From: Actinomycetes bacterium
Lineage (GTDB): Bacteria; Actinomycetota; Thermoleophilia; RBG-16-64-13
DNA length: 64,000 nucleotides
Reading direction: 5' to 3'
Assembly: GCA_024637035.1 (NCBI GenBank)
Contig: JAGXFW010000014.1
Span: 124,001 to 188,000 of the forward strand
The stretch's first letter is position 1. Every line of letters starts with the position of its first letter. Under the pieces are notes generated by a model. It was not told the origin of the DNA and ran no database searches. It was given only the letters and a program-made list of their open reading frames with translations. A program made the position numbers and the translations under genes. Below, one piece after another: positions 10,046-17,847 of the stretch.

Positions 10046-11389
10046 GTGAAGCTAGGTGCAGGTGCAAGACCGTGGAAATGGGTGCGCAGAGCGGCCCAGG
10101 CGACGGTGGTAGTGATCATCGGATGGCTCGGATATCGCCACACGTTGCTGGGGGGCGGGGCGGGTGGATCCGCGCCACTCGACGCTTTCTGCCCGTTCGG
10201 CGCCATCGAGACGCTCCCCAGCCTGCTCACCACCGGCACGTTCCTGAAGAAGACCGCCATCTCCGGTTTCATCGTCCTCGGGGCGGTCGTGGGCGCCACG
10301 ATGGTCGGGCGCGCATCGTTCTGCGGGTGGCTCTGCCCGCTCGGAACGGTGGTCGAGTGGGTGCACCGAGCGGCCCGCTTCCTCGCCAGGGTGGCGGGTG
10401 GGATCCCCGGCGCTGGGCGCCTGGGCAAGGCCGCCTCTCGGTGGGGAGCACGACGCGCCCGTCGCGGGGCGTGGCTTCGGTCCGAGCGTGGCCGAGCGTG
10501 GGACCGGCGCCTTCGCTACCTGCGCTACGGCGTCCTCGCGCTCATCCTGGCTACCACCTTCACCGGCGGCCGTCTGGTCTTCGAAGCCTACGACCCGTTC
10601 AAGGCGGTGTTCCACTTCCAGATCGAGACGGCCCTCACCCTCGGGGTCCTCGTGCTGCTGCTCGTCACAAGCCTGCTCGTCGAGCGGTTCTGGTGTCGCT
10701 ACTTGTGCCCGCTCGGAGCGGTCGTCTCCCTTGGGAGTCGCCTGTCACCAGCGGGCGTCACTCGGGATAGCGGGGCCTGCACCGACTGCGGCCGCTGCGA
10801 CGCGGCCTGCGGCATGGGCATCGATGTGTCACACGTGGAACGGGTCACGAGCGGTCAGTGCAGCCTGTGCGGCGACTGCACGGACGCATGCCCTGTTGAG
10901 GGGGCTCTGCACACCACTTGGTCTGCGCCCGCCGGCGGCGGTCACGCCGCGCGCCGTCTTCTCGGCGCCGCACCCGATCGGATCCGTCGCGGTTTCGCAT
11001 CGGCCGGATCGGGCGCACGGCCGGCCATGGCGGTGATCCTCTTCGCGGCGGTCATCGCAGGATCCATGGCGACGGGCGCATGGCAGACACGAGCCGAGGC
11101 GGGCGGCGGAGCGGGAGCCGGGTCAGAAGCGGTCGTCGGCTCAGACCACGAAGGCGAATCGCTGCCCACCGACGGCAGCGCCCAGGCGACAGAGATCAAG
11201 GGACGCATGACCGTGCGAGAAGTGGCAGATGCCTTCCACGCCGATCCCGTCGAGGTACTCGCTGCCCTCGGAGCACCGCCGGACACGGATCAGGGACTCA
11301 GCGTCAAAGCAGTGGCGGGCACGTACGGGGGGTCAGTGGACGATCTTCGGGCGTGGTTGGGATCCGGCGTGGTGCCGCCTGCCCCCTGA
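10046..11389 (+). CDS. NapH/MauN-type 4Fe-4S polyferredoxin membrane protein
   Basis: 447 residues from GTG 10046 (GGAGGAGG upstream). It has several membrane helices interleaved with the paired FCPFGAIE, CGWLCPLGTVVEWV and CRYLCPLGAVVSL motifs typical of NapH-type electron-transfer proteins. Two ferredoxin clusters follow: CTDCGRCDAACGMGIDV and CSLCGDCTDACPVEG (about residues 246-290). A further hydrophobic segment (MAVILFAAVIAGSMATGAWQ) leads to a C-terminal tail resembling small DNA/protein-binding modules (MTVREVADAFHADPVEVLAAL). It probably passes electrons across or along the membrane. No catalytic subunit is adjacent, so the acceptor is unknown. Confidence 0.88.
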   Translation: MKLGAGARPWKWVRRAAQATVVVIIGWLGYRHTLLGGGAGGSAPLDAFCPFGAIETLPSLLTTGTFLKKTAISGFIVLGAVVGATMVGRASFCGWLCPLGTVVEWVHRAARFLARVAGGIPGAGRLGKAASRWGARRARRGAWLRSERGRAWDRRLRYLRYGVLALILATTFTGGRLVFEAYDPFKAVFHFQIETALTLGVLVLLLVTSLLVERFWCRYLCPLGAVVSLGSRLSPAGVTRDSGACTDCGRCDAACGMGIDVSHVERVTSGQCSLCGDCTDACPVEGALHTTWSAPAGGGHAARRLLGAAPDRIRRGFASAGSGARPAMAVILFAAVIAGSMATGAWQTRAEAGGGAGAGSEAVVGSDHEGESLPTDGSAQATEIKGRMTVREVADAFHADPVEVLAALGAPPDTDQGLSVKAVAGTYGGSVDDLRAWLGSGVVPPAP

Positions 11390-11476
11390 TCTCGCCCCGA
11401 TGCTGATCCGGGCCTCACGCGTGCCGTCCGTGGTGGCACCGCCCACATTTTTTTTCCGCCAACTGTAATACCCGGC

Positions 11477-11526
11477 CCCTTTCTCGGTTGTACGAATAGG
11501 ACGCACCACAACGAACCGAGAAAGGG
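11477..11526 (+). promoter_or_regulatory. Hairpin occluding the ribosome binding site of the LPFTG gene
   Basis: CCCTTTCTCGGTT (11477-11489) pairs perfectly over 13 bases with AACCGAGAAAGGG (11514-11526), around a 24-nt loop. The right arm contains most of the Shine-Dalgarno sequence GGGAGG (11524-11529) of the gene starting at 11536. If the leader is transcribed, the stem would hide the ribosome binding site; as DNA it could also be an operator. Confidence 0.6.
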
Positions 11527-11535
11527 AGGCCCACG

Positions 11536-12183
11536 ATGACAGCGAAGCCGAACACCACGAGAGGCGCGACAGCGGTCCTGACACTGGCCACGATGCTGAT
11601 CCTCCTCATGGCGATGGCCGCACCGGCCATGGCGCTGAGCGGAGTCCATCTCCCGGCGCTGCCCGACATGAACGCCGTCCAAGTGAACCCCGAGATCATC
11701 CAGCACCTGCAGCCCGTCGCCCCCGCGGCGCCCCAGTTGGACCCGAGCCTGATCCCGGGCCTCGAACCGATCGTGCCCCTGGTCCCCCCCGGCGATATCG
11801 AACTGCTCCCCGTTGACCCGATCATCCCGCCTCTGGTCCCTGCGGACCCGCCTGCAGTCCCCGTTGATCCGGTGGACCCGCCTGCGGCTCCTGCGGATCC
11901 GGTGGACCCGCCCGCAGTCCCCGTGGATCCCGAGGACCCGCCTGCGGCTCCTGCGGATCCGGTGGACCCGCCCGCCGACGATCCCGCGGACGAACCGACT
12001 GACGAACCAGCCGACCAACCGACTGACGAACCGGCCGACCAACCGGCCGACCAGCCCGCCGACGAGCCCATGCTCCCCTTCACCGGCGGCGACAACACCC
12101 CGTACCTCATCGCCGGCGCGGCCATGGCCCTCTTCGGACTGAGCGCCATCCGCCGCAGGCGCGACGAGTCCGACCGCGACTGA
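11536..12183 (+). CDS. LPXTG-type (LPFTG) cell-wall-anchored Pro/Asp-rich repeat protein
   Basis: 215 residues, exported and sortase-anchored. An N-terminal signal peptide (hydrophobic LTLATMLILLMAMAAPAMA, cleavage near residue 34) is followed by a short unique part. Then come Pro-rich repeats: DPPAVPVDPVDPPAAPADPV blocks, then acidic DEPADQPTDEPADQP repeats. The sorting signal is LPFTG (180-184), a hydrophobic helix and the basic tail RRRRDESDRD. The repeats extend the chain through the wall and carry no enzymatic domain. The sortase gene follows immediately, which makes it the natural substrate. Confidence 0.92.
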   Translation: MTAKPNTTRGATAVLTLATMLILLMAMAAPAMALSGVHLPALPDMNAVQVNPEIIQHLQPVAPAAPQLDPSLIPGLEPIVPLVPPGDIELLPVDPIIPPLVPADPPAVPVDPVDPPAAPADPVDPPAVPVDPEDPPAAPADPVDPPADDPADEPTDEPADQPTDEPADQPADQPADEPMLPFTGGDNTPYLIAGAAMALFGLSAIRRRRDESDRD

Positions 12184-12318: not shown

Positions 12319-13041
12319 ATGACCACAACCCCGACAGCACTCGGATGGCCGAAAGAGCCCGTCGACCTCGCCGGGCAGTCCCCGTCGCTGGAACGGTCGG
12401 TCAGCACTGAAGACGCGTTGCGTGTGGACCTGGCCCGCAGGCAGAAGGGGCAGAAGAGGCGGAAGCGCCAGAGACGGCACGACCTGATGCTGGCCGGCAT
12501 CATGGTACTCGCCGGCATCGCCGTGATGTTCTACCCGAAGCTCACCGACGTGCGCTACGAGTTCGCCCAGTGGCGCCTCTCCCTCGCCGCTATCGCCGCG
12601 CCGGTCTTGTCGACGACGGGAGACAGCGCCGGCGGCGGGGTCGCGCTCCCCGAGGGCGTCGTGGCCCGGCTGGAGATCCCGGCGATCGGCCTGCAAGCCT
12701 ACGTGGTCGAGGGAACCCAGAAATCCCAACTCACGAAGGGACCCGGTCACTACCCCGGTACGCCGCTCCCCGGCGAGAGCGGCAACGTTGCCATCGCGGG
12801 ACACCGCACCATGTACGGGCACGTGTTCCACGACCTGCACCTGCTCGAGGCGGGCGACGTGATCCGCACGGCGACCAGCGCCACGACCGCCACCTACCGA
12901 GTAGTCGAAATCCGCGTCGTGAGCCCCCGCGACACCCACGTGGCGGCCGCCACCGATGACAGCCGTCTCACCCTCACCACGTGCAACCCCATAGGCAGCG
13001 CGGCCCAAAGGTTGGTTGTCGTCGCCGAGCTCGACGACTAG
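12319..13041 (+). CDS. Class E sortase
   Basis: Transpeptidase that links LPXTG/LAXTG-type proteins to the peptidoglycan. 240 residues from ATG 12319, selected for its GGGAGG site. An N-terminal basic cytosolic stretch (RRQKGQKRRKRQRRH) and one anchor helix precede the catalytic domain. Catalytic residues visible are His162 (GHRTMYGHVF), Cys222 (TLTTCNP) and Arg231 (QRLVVVAEL). Lone class E enzymes usually act as housekeeping sortases in high-GC actinobacteria. Neighbours are its likely substrate upstream and a membrane-bound sigma factor 1 nt downstream. Confidence 0.93.
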   Translation: MTTTPTALGWPKEPVDLAGQSPSLERSVSTEDALRVDLARRQKGQKRRKRQRRHDLMLAGIMVLAGIAVMFYPKLTDVRYEFAQWRLSLAAIAAPVLSTTGDSAGGGVALPEGVVARLEIPAIGLQAYVVEGTQKSQLTKGPGHYPGTPLPGESGNVAIAGHRTMYGHVFHDLHLLEAGDVIRTATSATTATYRVVEIRVVSPRDTHVAAATDDSRLTLTTCNPIGSAAQRLVVVAELDD

Positions 13042-13042
13042 G

Positions 13043-14770
13043 ATGGAACGCATGGGGGCATTCGCCGACACAGCCGCAGCCACCGCCGACGCCGCGCTGG
13101 TCGCAGCCGCGCGCGACGGGCAGCAGTCCGCGTTCGCCGAACTCTTCGAACGCTACCAACAGCGCATCTACAACTACGCGTACGGCATCGCCGGCAACCA
13201 CGAGGACGCCGGCGACATCGCCCAGGACGCGTTCGTTCGCGTCTTCCAGGCGCTGCCTCGGCTCACAGGAGAGCTGAACTTCTCCGCCTACCTGTACCGG
13301 ACGGCTCATAACACGGCCATCGACGCCGTGAAGCACCGCACCCGATTCGTGGCGCCCGACCTGCTCGATCTGCAGATGGAACCCGCCCTGCGGGCCGACC
13401 CCGAGCGGGTCACCCTCCTCCGGGAGCAGCAAGAGCAGACGTGGCAGGCCACCTTCGAACTCAGCGACAACCACCGCGCCATCCTCGCCCTCCGCGAACT
13501 GCACGACCTCTCCTACCAGGAGATCGCGGACGTCATGGGGATGAAGCGGGCGACAGTAGGCGCACTGCTCTCGCGGGCGCGCCTGAAGTTCAAGGAGGCG
13601 TTCAGGATGTCCTCCATCGACACCGAGAACCTGGTGAAGGAGTGCCGCGACATGCTGCCGCTCCTCTCGGCCTACCTCGACGACGAACTCGACGCGCCGG
13701 AGCGTGACCACGTAGGAACCCACCTGGAGGCGTGCGCATTCTGCGGCCTCGCGCTGGAAGAGATGACCGAGTCCTCGCGCAGCTACCGGGCACTGGCGCC
13801 GATCGCACTACCATTGGCCTTCCGCGATTCTGCCTGGGCGAGCGTGCGCGAACGGCTGACCACCGACGCCGCGAGCCGGGCGACCGCCGCCGCCGGCGCT
13901 GCCGACGCCACCGGCGCCCCCGAATCTGCCGACGCCTGGGTATCCGGGGGGGCTCTCCCCCCGGCGAACGGCGGAGCCCCGGAGGCACCACGGGGAAGGG
14001 TATCCAGAGTGGTGGCCGGTGTCCTGGTCACCGCCGCCGTGGTGTTCTTCGGAGTGTCCATGGCCGGAGGCATCGCCGCCTACCGAGCCTACCAGGCCTC
14101 CACCACCACGACGGTGGCCGCTTCGACGGTCAACGTCGCCGACGGCCAGAGCGATGTCGGGGTACTCGCGTCCGATGACGACAGATCCACGTCCACGGTC
14201 GCACCGGGTTCGAGCGAGCCGACTGTGATCAGAACGTCCACCACCGACCCGTCCACCACTGACCCACCGGCCACCCGGGCGCCGACAACCCGACCTTCGA
14301 CCACCCGCACGACGGCCGCCCTCTCAACGACGCCGGTGACATCGGCGGCCACCACGACCTCAGTCACCCGCACCATCGGCACCGTGACGAGCACCACCAG
14401 GCCGACGCTCACCCTCGACACCACGCCGCCGCCGACCCCGGCCCTCATCTCACCCAGCAATGGTGCCGTCATCGAGAGTAGGACGCTGAAGCTGGTGTGG
14501 CAGGCGGTCAAGGATCCGAGCGGCGTGCTCTACCGGGTCGAGGTGCAACGGTTCGACGGCAAGACCTACGTGCCGGCCCAGACCTACACCGACCTCACGG
14601 TCACCAGCGTCGGACGCACCATGGCGGCTTCCGCCGAGCGCTGGCGCGTGTCGGCCGTCGACGGACGGGGCAACTGGAGCACCCCGAGTCGGTGGTGGAG
14701 CGTCTCCCGGCAGCTCGTCATCGTAGTGCCGATGACCATGTTGACCACGACCACCTTCATGCTCTATTGA
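13043..14770 (+). CDS. Membrane-tethered ECF sigma factor fused to zinc-finger, TM helix and extracellular domain
   Basis: 575 residues. Sigma region 2 (about 22-92: FAELFERYQQRIYNYAYGIA, DIAQDAFVRVFQALPRL) and region 4 (about 133-185: HDLSYQEIADVMGMKRATVG) are complete. An anti-sigma-like zinc finger follows, with H227-x3-C231-x2-C234 after CRDMLPLLSAYLDDELDAPE. Then come a linker, one membrane helix (RVVAGVLVTAAVVFFGVSMA, about 322-345), a Thr/Ser-rich stretch of about 100 residues and a fibronectin-III-like domain (PALISPSNGAVIESRTLKLVW to RWRVSAVDGRGNWS). ECF groups with long membrane-spanning extensions are known in actinobacteria. The layout suggests an envelope sensor holding its own sigma domain at the membrane. 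ATG 13052 is an alternative start. Confidence 0.9.
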   Translation: MERMGAFADTAAATADAALVAAARDGQQSAFAELFERYQQRIYNYAYGIAGNHEDAGDIAQDAFVRVFQALPRLTGELNFSAYLYRTAHNTAIDAVKHRTRFVAPDLLDLQMEPALRADPERVTLLREQQEQTWQATFELSDNHRAILALRELHDLSYQEIADVMGMKRATVGALLSRARLKFKEAFRMSSIDTENLVKECRDMLPLLSAYLDDELDAPERDHVGTHLEACAFCGLALEEMTESSRSYRALAPIALPLAFRDSAWASVRERLTTDAASRATAAAGAADATGAPESADAWVSGGALPPANGGAPEAPRGRVSRVVAGVLVTAAVVFFGVSMAGGIAAYRAYQASTTTTVAASTVNVADGQSDVGVLASDDDRSTSTVAPGSSEPTVIRTSTTDPSTTDPPATRAPTTRPSTTRTTAALSTTPVTSAATTTSVTRTIGTVTSTTRPTLTLDTTPPPTPALISPSNGAVIESRTLKLVWQAVKDPSGVLYRVEVQRFDGKTYVPAQTYTDLTVTSVGRTMAASAERWRVSAVDGRGNWSTPSRWWSVSRQLVIVVPMTMLTTTTFMLY

Positions 14771-16955: not shown

Positions 16956-17195
16956 CTAGGCCGGAGCCTCGCTCTCCGCGGGCGCGAACTCGACCGAGGT
17001 CAACGGCATCGCCCGGATAACCAGTCGGGTGAGATCTGCCACCGACGATGCGTGGTCGATATCGATCCCCACCAGACCGCCGTCCTCATCCAGATCGAGG
17101 ACCACACCGGGAGCCACCTCCCGAGAATCGGCGCTCGGCTTCTCGGCGAGATCGATGTAGAGGGAGTCGGTGTCCTGGTAGTAGTGGGATCTCAT
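16956..17195 (-). CDS. DUF2283 protein, third gene of a hicAB operon
   Basis: 79 residues of the DUF2283 family, recognised by the pattern YYQDTDSLYIDLAEKPSADS then VAPGVVLDLDEDGGLVGIDIDHAS. The family occurs in toxin-antitoxin settings, usually after a DUF4258 gene as at 34.5 kb in this window. Its start overlaps the hicB stop by four bases, so it is translated as part of the HicAB unit. Its role is unknown; it may stabilise or replace the antitoxin. Confidence 0.8.
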   Translation of the reverse strand: MRSHYYQDTDSLYIDLAEKPSADSREVAPGVVLDLDEDGGLVGIDIDHASSVADLTRLVIRAMPLTSVEFAPAESEAPA

Positions 17196-17596
17196 CGCGC
17201 TGCCGCAGGGAGGTCGCGATCCTCGAAGGAGGGGCCGGTCCTTTGGAGGGAACGCTCTCCGCGGATGCCCAATCCCTCGGCAACCAAGCTGACGATCAAG
17301 GTGTTGAGTGAGACGCCTTCGTACCCGGCGCGGACCACCAGAGCCTCATGCATGGAGACGGGAACGCGCACGCGGAACTGACCGCTGAACACCGGCATCT
17401 CCAGGGGTGCGGGCACCTGGAGACCTTCTTCGCTCATCGCATCAACTAAGGCCTCCGCCGCCTGCTCCACTTCCCGGACCGCGTCCTCCGCGGTCTCGCC
17501 ACAAGCACTCAATCCCCTCAGTTCCGGAATCGTAGCCACGTAGCCGCCATCCTCGTTACTCCACATGAGGTTCACCGCATAGCGAAAGCGCATCAC
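17192..17596 (-). CDS. hicB: HicB-family antitoxin (HicB fold plus ribbon-helix-helix)
   Basis: 134 residues. N-terminal partly degraded RNase-H fold typical of HicB (FRYAVNLMWSNEDGGYVATIPELRGLSACGETAEDAVREVEQAAEAL), then a C-terminal ribbon-helix-helix segment (GQFRVRVPVSMHEALVVRAGYEGVSLNTLI) that should bind the operator. It neutralises the HicA ribonuclease and represses its own promoter. It overlaps both neighbours by 4 nt. Confidence 0.88.
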   Translation of the reverse strand: MMRFRYAVNLMWSNEDGGYVATIPELRGLSACGETAEDAVREVEQAAEALVDAMSEEGLQVPAPLEMPVFSGQFRVRVPVSMHEALVVRAGYEGVSLNTLIVSLVAEGLGIRGERSLQRTGPSFEDRDLPAAAR

Positions 17597-17847
17597 CGCT
17601 CCTTCAGAAGTCCGTACTCCTCGACGAGCGCTACCAACTGCCGCACCTGATATGGCTTCGCCTCGCCTCCTTGATTCTGCAGGTTCACAAGCACACCCCG
17701 ATAGTCTCGATGGCGGAAGATGTGATGTGATCCACTCACCCGCACTTCTACGAACCCGACCTCTTCCGCGAGCCGCACGATCTGGGTGAATCGAACATTC
17801 GCGGGGTTCCGGCGAACCCTCGCGTACAGCCGCAGGACATCAACCAT
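17593..17847 (-). CDS. hicA: HicA-family mRNA interferase toxin
   Basis: 84 residues, first gene of the hicA-hicB-DUF2283 operon. The HicA/YcfA dsRBD-like fold carries the catalytic His in VSGSHHIFRHRDYRG, followed by VNLQNQGGEAKPYQVRQLVALVEEYGLL. HicA cleaves mRNA on translation arrest when HicB is degraded. A 15-20 residue N-terminal extension (MVDVLRLYARVRRNPANVRF) precedes the usual start, typical of this subgroup. Paired 11-bp repeats lie just upstream. Confidence 0.88.
   Translation of the reverse strand: MVDVLRLYARVRRNPANVRFTQIVRLAEEVGFVEVRVSGSHHIFRHRDYRGVLVNLQNQGGEAKPYQVRQLVALVEEYGLLKER

Follow-up and report, generated by a model that had tools for sequence, protein, structure and literature searches.

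Fused ECF sigma factors have been described in several bacterial groups. The groups ECF48, ECF52 and ECF53 are actinobacterial and combine a fused zinc finger, one or two membrane helices and long extensions, with activation expected to occur by proteolysis (PMC8999054). The best-studied example of such a fused sigma factor is SCO4117 of Streptomyces coelicolor (ECF52), for which proteolytic activation has been proposed and autoregulation suggested, and whose truncated sigma part is active (PMC5826349). In Pseudomonas putida, IutY (ECF243) is a sigma factor fused to a membrane anti-sigma factor and freed by regulated proteolysis (PMC8999054). Among unfused systems, the ECF factor sigma-BldN of Streptomyces directly activates the chaplins, of which the long ones are sortase-anchored, and is controlled by its cognate anti-sigma factor RsbN (PMC4255298). 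The SigW/RsiW pair of Bacillus, which responds to envelope stress, likewise consists of two proteins.

The locus analysed here lies in a window of 64,000 nt (contig JAGXFW010000014.1, positions 124,001 to 188,000, forward strand) from an Actinomycetes bacterium assigned to RBG-16-64-13 in the class Thermoleophilia (GCA_024637035.1). At 13043..14770 (+), the window possessed a single uninterrupted reading frame of 575 aa with a GC3 of 0.77-0.94 throughout, the other two frames being closed by many stops. The encoded protein matched, above the gathering scores, Pfam Sigma70_r2 (PF04542; aa 34-101, 13142..13345 (+), 3.6e-18) and Sigma70_r4_2 (PF08281; aa 139-182, 13457..13588 (+), 2.2e-11), and scored 101 bits against TIGR02937 (cut-off 42.9); with regions 2 and 4 complete and region 3 absent, it is an ECF sigma factor. 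The same chain continued with a ZAS/zf-HC2 anti-sigma domain of the form C...HxxxCxxC (aa 201-234, 13643..13744 (+)), of which aa 201-232 matched PF13490 (2e-6, 28.2 bits against a gathering score of 22.2). The HxxxCxxC part begins at aa 227, and its zinc finger is a predicted metal site, the C/H/C/C ligands being kept in the window protein and in its homologues from another family of the class (f6). Further along came a single membrane helix with an Arg-rich N-terminal side (aa 323-341, 14009..14065 (+), hydropathy 2.4), a Thr/Ser/Pro-rich stalk dominated by Thr (aa 350-455, 14090..14407 (+)), whose length differs among species, and an outer beta-rich domain of ~120 aa (~aa 456-575, 14408..14767 (+)) ending in the conserved tail TTTT[FI]MLY. 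Pfam, hydropathy and direct reading thus bore out the earlier note, which had recognised ECF regions 2 and 4, an HxxxCxxC zinc finger, a membrane helix and a Thr-rich stalk in one protein and had placed its start 1 nt past the sortase gene (sortase stop TAG ending at 13041, ATG at 13043). Near the gene, the only Rfam match was a spurious one to mir-341, below the gathering score.

With sigma factor, zinc finger and membrane helix in one chain, the protein has a fused ECF-anti-sigma architecture, and the comparison with ECF groups bearing C-terminal extensions, suggested in the earlier note, showed that this architecture is already known from ECF48/52/53 (PMC8999054, PMC5826349). The likeness to ECF48 and ECF53 lies in the domain architecture (zinc finger and membrane helix fused to the sigma factor), whereas the texts read on these groups describe no link to a sortase, which here adjoins the fused gene (PMC8999054). 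SCO4117 likewise unites an ECF sigma factor, a pfam13490 zinc finger and a membrane helix with an outer domain that follows an extracellular stretch of low complexity. The linker of SCO4117 is Pro-rich, that of the window protein being Thr/Ser/Pro-rich with Thr dominant. The outer domain of SCO4117 is a carbohydrate-binding module (smart00776-type), a feature of ECF52 that was not detected in the window protein. SCO4117 also neighbours atrA and has CSGYN-17-SRHA as its proposed motif, in place of the sortase and LPXTG neighbours found here and the CGTAA-N17-CGTCATA element of f6. IutY differs in serving iron-siderophore cell-surface signalling in a Gram-negative host with a different sensor domain. 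Sigma-BldN and RsbN are encoded by two separate genes with a developmental role in sporulating actinomycetes, and the part of their account considered mentions no adjacent sortase gene (PMC4255298). The closest solved sigma factor was SigW (phmmer 6.9e-17), itself not fused, and the predicted fold of the sigma part was closest to SigW bound to RsiW (Foldseek TM 0.80-0.85) and not to holoenzyme-bound sigma factors; the zinc-finger part of the predicted structure had low confidence.

The outer domain had been described in the earlier note as FN3-like. A profile of two outer-domain sequences matched the insulin-receptor FN3 region (E=0.003), and a single-sequence AlphaFold model was all-beta with a pLDDT of 53; the 575-aa protein had no Pfam FN3 match, so that the FN3 likeness is weakly supported. 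Propeller-blade and lectin matches of the model (Z <= 7.3) were unspecific and were set aside, as the model is too poor for them to carry meaning. No carbohydrate-binding family appeared among the Pfam matches of the whole protein up to E 0.1. Outer domains varied between fused homologues of different families, as expected if they sense different surfaces.

Upstream of the fused gene, the window encoded a sortase (12319..13041 (+); Pfam Sortase PF04203, 9.7e-36; Shine-Dalgarno -11.3 kcal/mol) and, before it, an LPXTG-type wall protein (11536..12183 (+)) with a signal peptide, Pro-rich repeats, an LPFTG motif, a membrane helix and an RRRR tail. The best NCBIfam match of the sortase was class_E_sortase NF033747, whose curated cut-off of 160 bits it missed with a score of 120. 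The LPXTG_anchor and Gram_pos_anchor scores of the wall protein fell just under the curated cut-offs, its motif being identified by direct reading; with a sortase domain adjoining an LPXTG protein, the two genes form a sortase operon with a putative substrate, and the wall protein is likely both a substrate of the sortase and a member of the regulon described below. Just 5' of the LPXTG gene, the window also encoded a NapH-like membrane ferredoxin protein (10046-11389 (+)) that is not evidently connected with the sortase cluster, and further downstream three small overlapping genes (16956-17847 (-)) that, read from their translations, have the appearance of a DUF2283-type gene and a HicB/HicA-like toxin-antitoxin pair.

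The gene order in the window, LPXTG protein, sortase and fused sigma factor, was changed in f6 to fused sigma factor, sortase and LPXTG protein (L041, L064 and L065, and likewise L066 across a scaffold gap), and two further f6 loci (L067, L069) possessed the fused sigma factor and the sortase. An apparent single chain of 602 aa joining ECF, zinc finger, membrane helix and sortase in L066 was discarded, as its frame crosses an N run in the scaffold gap. A trio found in different gene orders is not the simple inheritance of a fixed neighbourhood, and the three functions staying together despite the changed order argues, from gene content and order, for a functional bond among the fused sigma, sortase and LPXTG genes. 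In the stretches examined around the more distant fused homologues L042-L047, a related sortase was absent, which limits the sortase link to two families. Among the papers returned by the literature searches and read, none ties a fused ECF factor to a sortase neighbourhood; the link to the sortase is the new part, the architecture itself being already known from ECF48/52/53 and SCO4117.

The earlier note had suggested looking for a shared promoter motif upstream of 11536 and elsewhere, and similar elements were indeed present there and in f6. The element CGTAA-N17-CGTCATA preceded the fused gene in 7/7 f6 genomes (with one base changed in L066, CGTTATA), as is typical of ECF autoregulation, and the same element also stood before the f6 sortase and LPXTG genes. 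Across the 108.8 kb of f6 loci, 18 matches were found at a spacer of 17 and one at 18, none at 20 other spacings, and the pattern had 0 matches in 30 simulated sets. The six f6 genomes lacking the fused gene had 0 or 1 exact site each. Genome-wide, a looser pattern was found before unlinked LPXTG genes in G032 (L101 3958), G063 (L106 955, minus strand) and, as a CGTCGTA variant, G051 (L103 4111, minus strand), and also before genes for secreted or lipoprotein-like products in G051/G052 and in G055. Sequence thus points to an autoregulated regulon in f6; no f6-type motif occurred upstream of the distant fused homologues L042-L049.

In the window itself, one weaker site was found: a candidate promoter, TGTAA-N17-GGTTGTA (11464..11492 (+)), 43 nt before the LPXTG gene and with the same 17-nt spacing as in f6. 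A matrix over the full 36 nt, built from 23 f6-type sites only and from none of the window, ranked 11464 (+) 1st of 127,930 window positions; when only the two conserved blocks were scored, the site ranked 26. The looser pattern had one other match in the window's genome, inside a coding region, so the target there may be a single operon. This pattern was drawn up with 11464 in view, so that the shuffles, which gave no matches, are not an independent test, whereas the f6-only matrix is. The case for the window's sigma factor reading 11464-11492 is therefore good but not conclusive.

Two side observations were made on sites of this type. A conserved block of ~90 nt (ACGGGGAAAGCACGAGTACCCGCC ... 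GAGCTCCATTTGACGGATGGAG) lay right behind CGTAA-N17-CGTCATA-type promoters (L064:6460-6560 (+), L065:6574 (-), L066:3593 (-), L106:877 (-) and L041:7346 (-)). Four helices make up its fold, which shows a few two-sided changes (96.5% of cells paired vs 30-45% when slid); the block had no Rfam family match and could serve the same regulon as a leader or regulatory RNA. In G032, a perfect promoter-type site (L101:1917-1945 (+)) was followed by a start resembling that of an LPXTG gene with ATC instead of ATG, possibly a decayed substrate gene.

Homologues were surveyed in a sample of 40-41 genomes of the same class, which covers the class in part. Six other families in this sample proved to have fused homologues, whose frames span ~490-720 aa, the closest being that of the f6 genome G032 (48% identity across sigma factor and zinc finger). 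All fused proteins clustered in the sigma-domain tree (91/91), and the window, f6 and three others formed a clade (100/98), a clustering from which the fusion is old and probably of one origin; the single row labelled separate within the fused cluster is cut off by the end of its contig before its frame closes. A whole-protein search of the genome contig collection returned nothing but sigma factors without the fusion or a match to low-complexity sequence, and the plasmid collection gave only partial matches to the sigma region, sometimes with the zinc-finger region, none spanning the whole protein. Two fused sigma factors of two other families (L042:8623-10779 and L043:9193-10797) lacked the zinc-binding His/Cys residues and kept the anti-sigma-like region, so their fused brake may work in a metal-free manner.

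The one congener compared, the sister species G001, still has the hydrolase downstream and, of the fused protein, the membrane helix, stalk and outer domain, the last being 67% identical. At this locus (L019:10263-11101), two deletions were observed, and the frame of the membrane-stalk-outer part was still open: an in-frame deletion of ~918 nt removes the sigma factor and zinc finger, and the other removes the LPXTG gene and the sortase except for about its last 50 codons. The dN/dS was 0.16 for the sortase remnant and 0.44 for the outer part, and the low value of the remnant indicates that the loss is probably recent. The joint loss of sigma factor, sortase and substrate is a further sign of their linkage, although the deletions may be an assembly fault.

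Taken as a whole, these data are probably best explained by a one-chain, autoregulated envelope-stress switch controlling a sortase and its substrates. The fused zinc-finger domain would hold the ECF sigma part at the membrane, as inhibition by this domain family suggests, and the outer domain on its Thr-rich stalk would sense a condition of the wall or surface. In response to a signal, the sigma factor would then be freed, most likely through cleavage near the membrane helix, by analogy with IutY, for which proteolysis is shown, and with ECF48/52/53, for which it is proposed (PMC8999054). The freed sigma factor would read (C/T)GTAA-N17-(C/G)GT(C/T)(A/G)TA, and its targets in the relatives would include, besides the fused gene and the sortase, LPXTG proteins and certain other secreted proteins. 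With its candidate site before the LPXTG gene, the LPXTG-sortase-sigma cluster of the window would be an operon that amplifies its own expression. The earlier note had proposed that the protein may sense wall state and control wall-protein anchoring, and this idea gained independent support from the trio in a second family with changed order, the N17 promoter common to its three gene types and the unlinked LPXTG genes that carry it; on such comparative grounds, the fused protein very likely governs the choice of proteins that become attached to the cell wall.

The joint between sigma factor and zinc finger bears on two alternatives. An internal Shine-Dalgarno sequence, AAGGAGG (13592..13598 (+)), lies 8 nt before an internal ATG (13607..13609 (+), aa 189), 12 aa before the zinc finger. 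No other ribosome site in the gene is as strong (duplex of -11.4 kcal/mol), the sortase and LPXTG genes having sites of equal strength, and ~2% of all window ATGs reach -10 kcal/mol; the upstream starts of the fused gene are weak (-2.2 and -6.4 kcal/mol) and probably coupled to the sortase stop. Such a site exactly where a separate anti-sigma factor would begin, together with the separate sigma/anti-sigma pairs present in the window's own family (G009, G011), could suggest that a sequencing or assembly error fused two genes, the circumstance under which the earlier note would have given up its one-gene reading. Against this, seven f6 genomes read through the joint in frame, with its R-M conserved, as do fused genes of further families; we give the error almost no credence for the window gene, and for the family these alignments have already refuted it. 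The alternative that the gene has dual products, a tethered sigma factor from 13043 and a free membrane anti-sigma factor from 13607 whose ratio regulates with or without proteolysis, is a less probable but serious rival. Met189 is invariant in the window protein and its seven f6 homologues, the codons AGA GAG GAG ... AGG before it are identical in 7/7 f6 genomes, where only 4/20 invariant Arg columns keep one codon, and of 215 stretches tested, few are as codon-conserved as the one across the joint. On the other side, aa 63-78 of L041 are equally codon-conserved for no obvious reason, so this evidence for a free anti-sigma factor is suggestive only; moreover, GAG codons are conserved in any case (9/13 Glu columns), the distant homologues L042 and L043 lack the Met, and the site may be a relic of an earlier two-gene pair. 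Within the autoregulated switch preferred here, the internal start at 13607 may supply extra free anti-sigma factor as a brake. Proteolysis or conformational change, which the earlier note had taken as the only means of release, would then not be the sole route to regulation, as the strong ribosome site at the joint could yield a separate anti-sigma factor.

ZAS zinc sites can act as redox sensors. The sigma factor could thus remain tethered and become active through a conformational switch, in which the zinc finger lets go, for instance upon oxidation of its C/H/C/C ligands, and the membrane-bound sigma factor recruits RNA polymerase; the ligands kept in the window and in f6 fit such a switch, and no protease site was identifiable in the sequence. 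This seems unlikely, as it would leave the outer domain and stalk with no role, the related fused proteins of L042 and L043 have no zinc ligands, and release by proteolysis is the mode proposed for ECF48/52/53 and demonstrated for IutY (PMC8999054). It is more improbable still that the sortase neighbourhood is incidental, with the f6 motif read by a different sigma factor that has the fused gene as one more target or as a bystander. Most fused homologues in other families are indeed not near a related sortase, and the f6 genome G057 retains one motif site while lacking the fused gene; the motif nonetheless stands directly before the fused gene in every f6 genome that has it and is nearly absent from those that do not, and the trio recurs in an altered gene order.

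Going further, the window protein and its f6 relatives might represent an undescribed group of one-chain sensors dedicated to the sortase pathway, in which the outer domain would monitor anchoring and the two products would provide a built-in threshold, a speculative proposal that we would not expect to hold in full. To our knowledge, the matching of sortase and substrate supply to wall state is poorly understood, and few targets are known for fused sigma/anti-sigma proteins. In the present case, a single locus together with its relatives allows the switch to be read off along with its target promoter and target genes. The promoter definition allows the regulon to be predicted in these relatives, and it becomes a testable question whether anchoring status feeds back on sortase expression via one membrane-tethered sigma factor.
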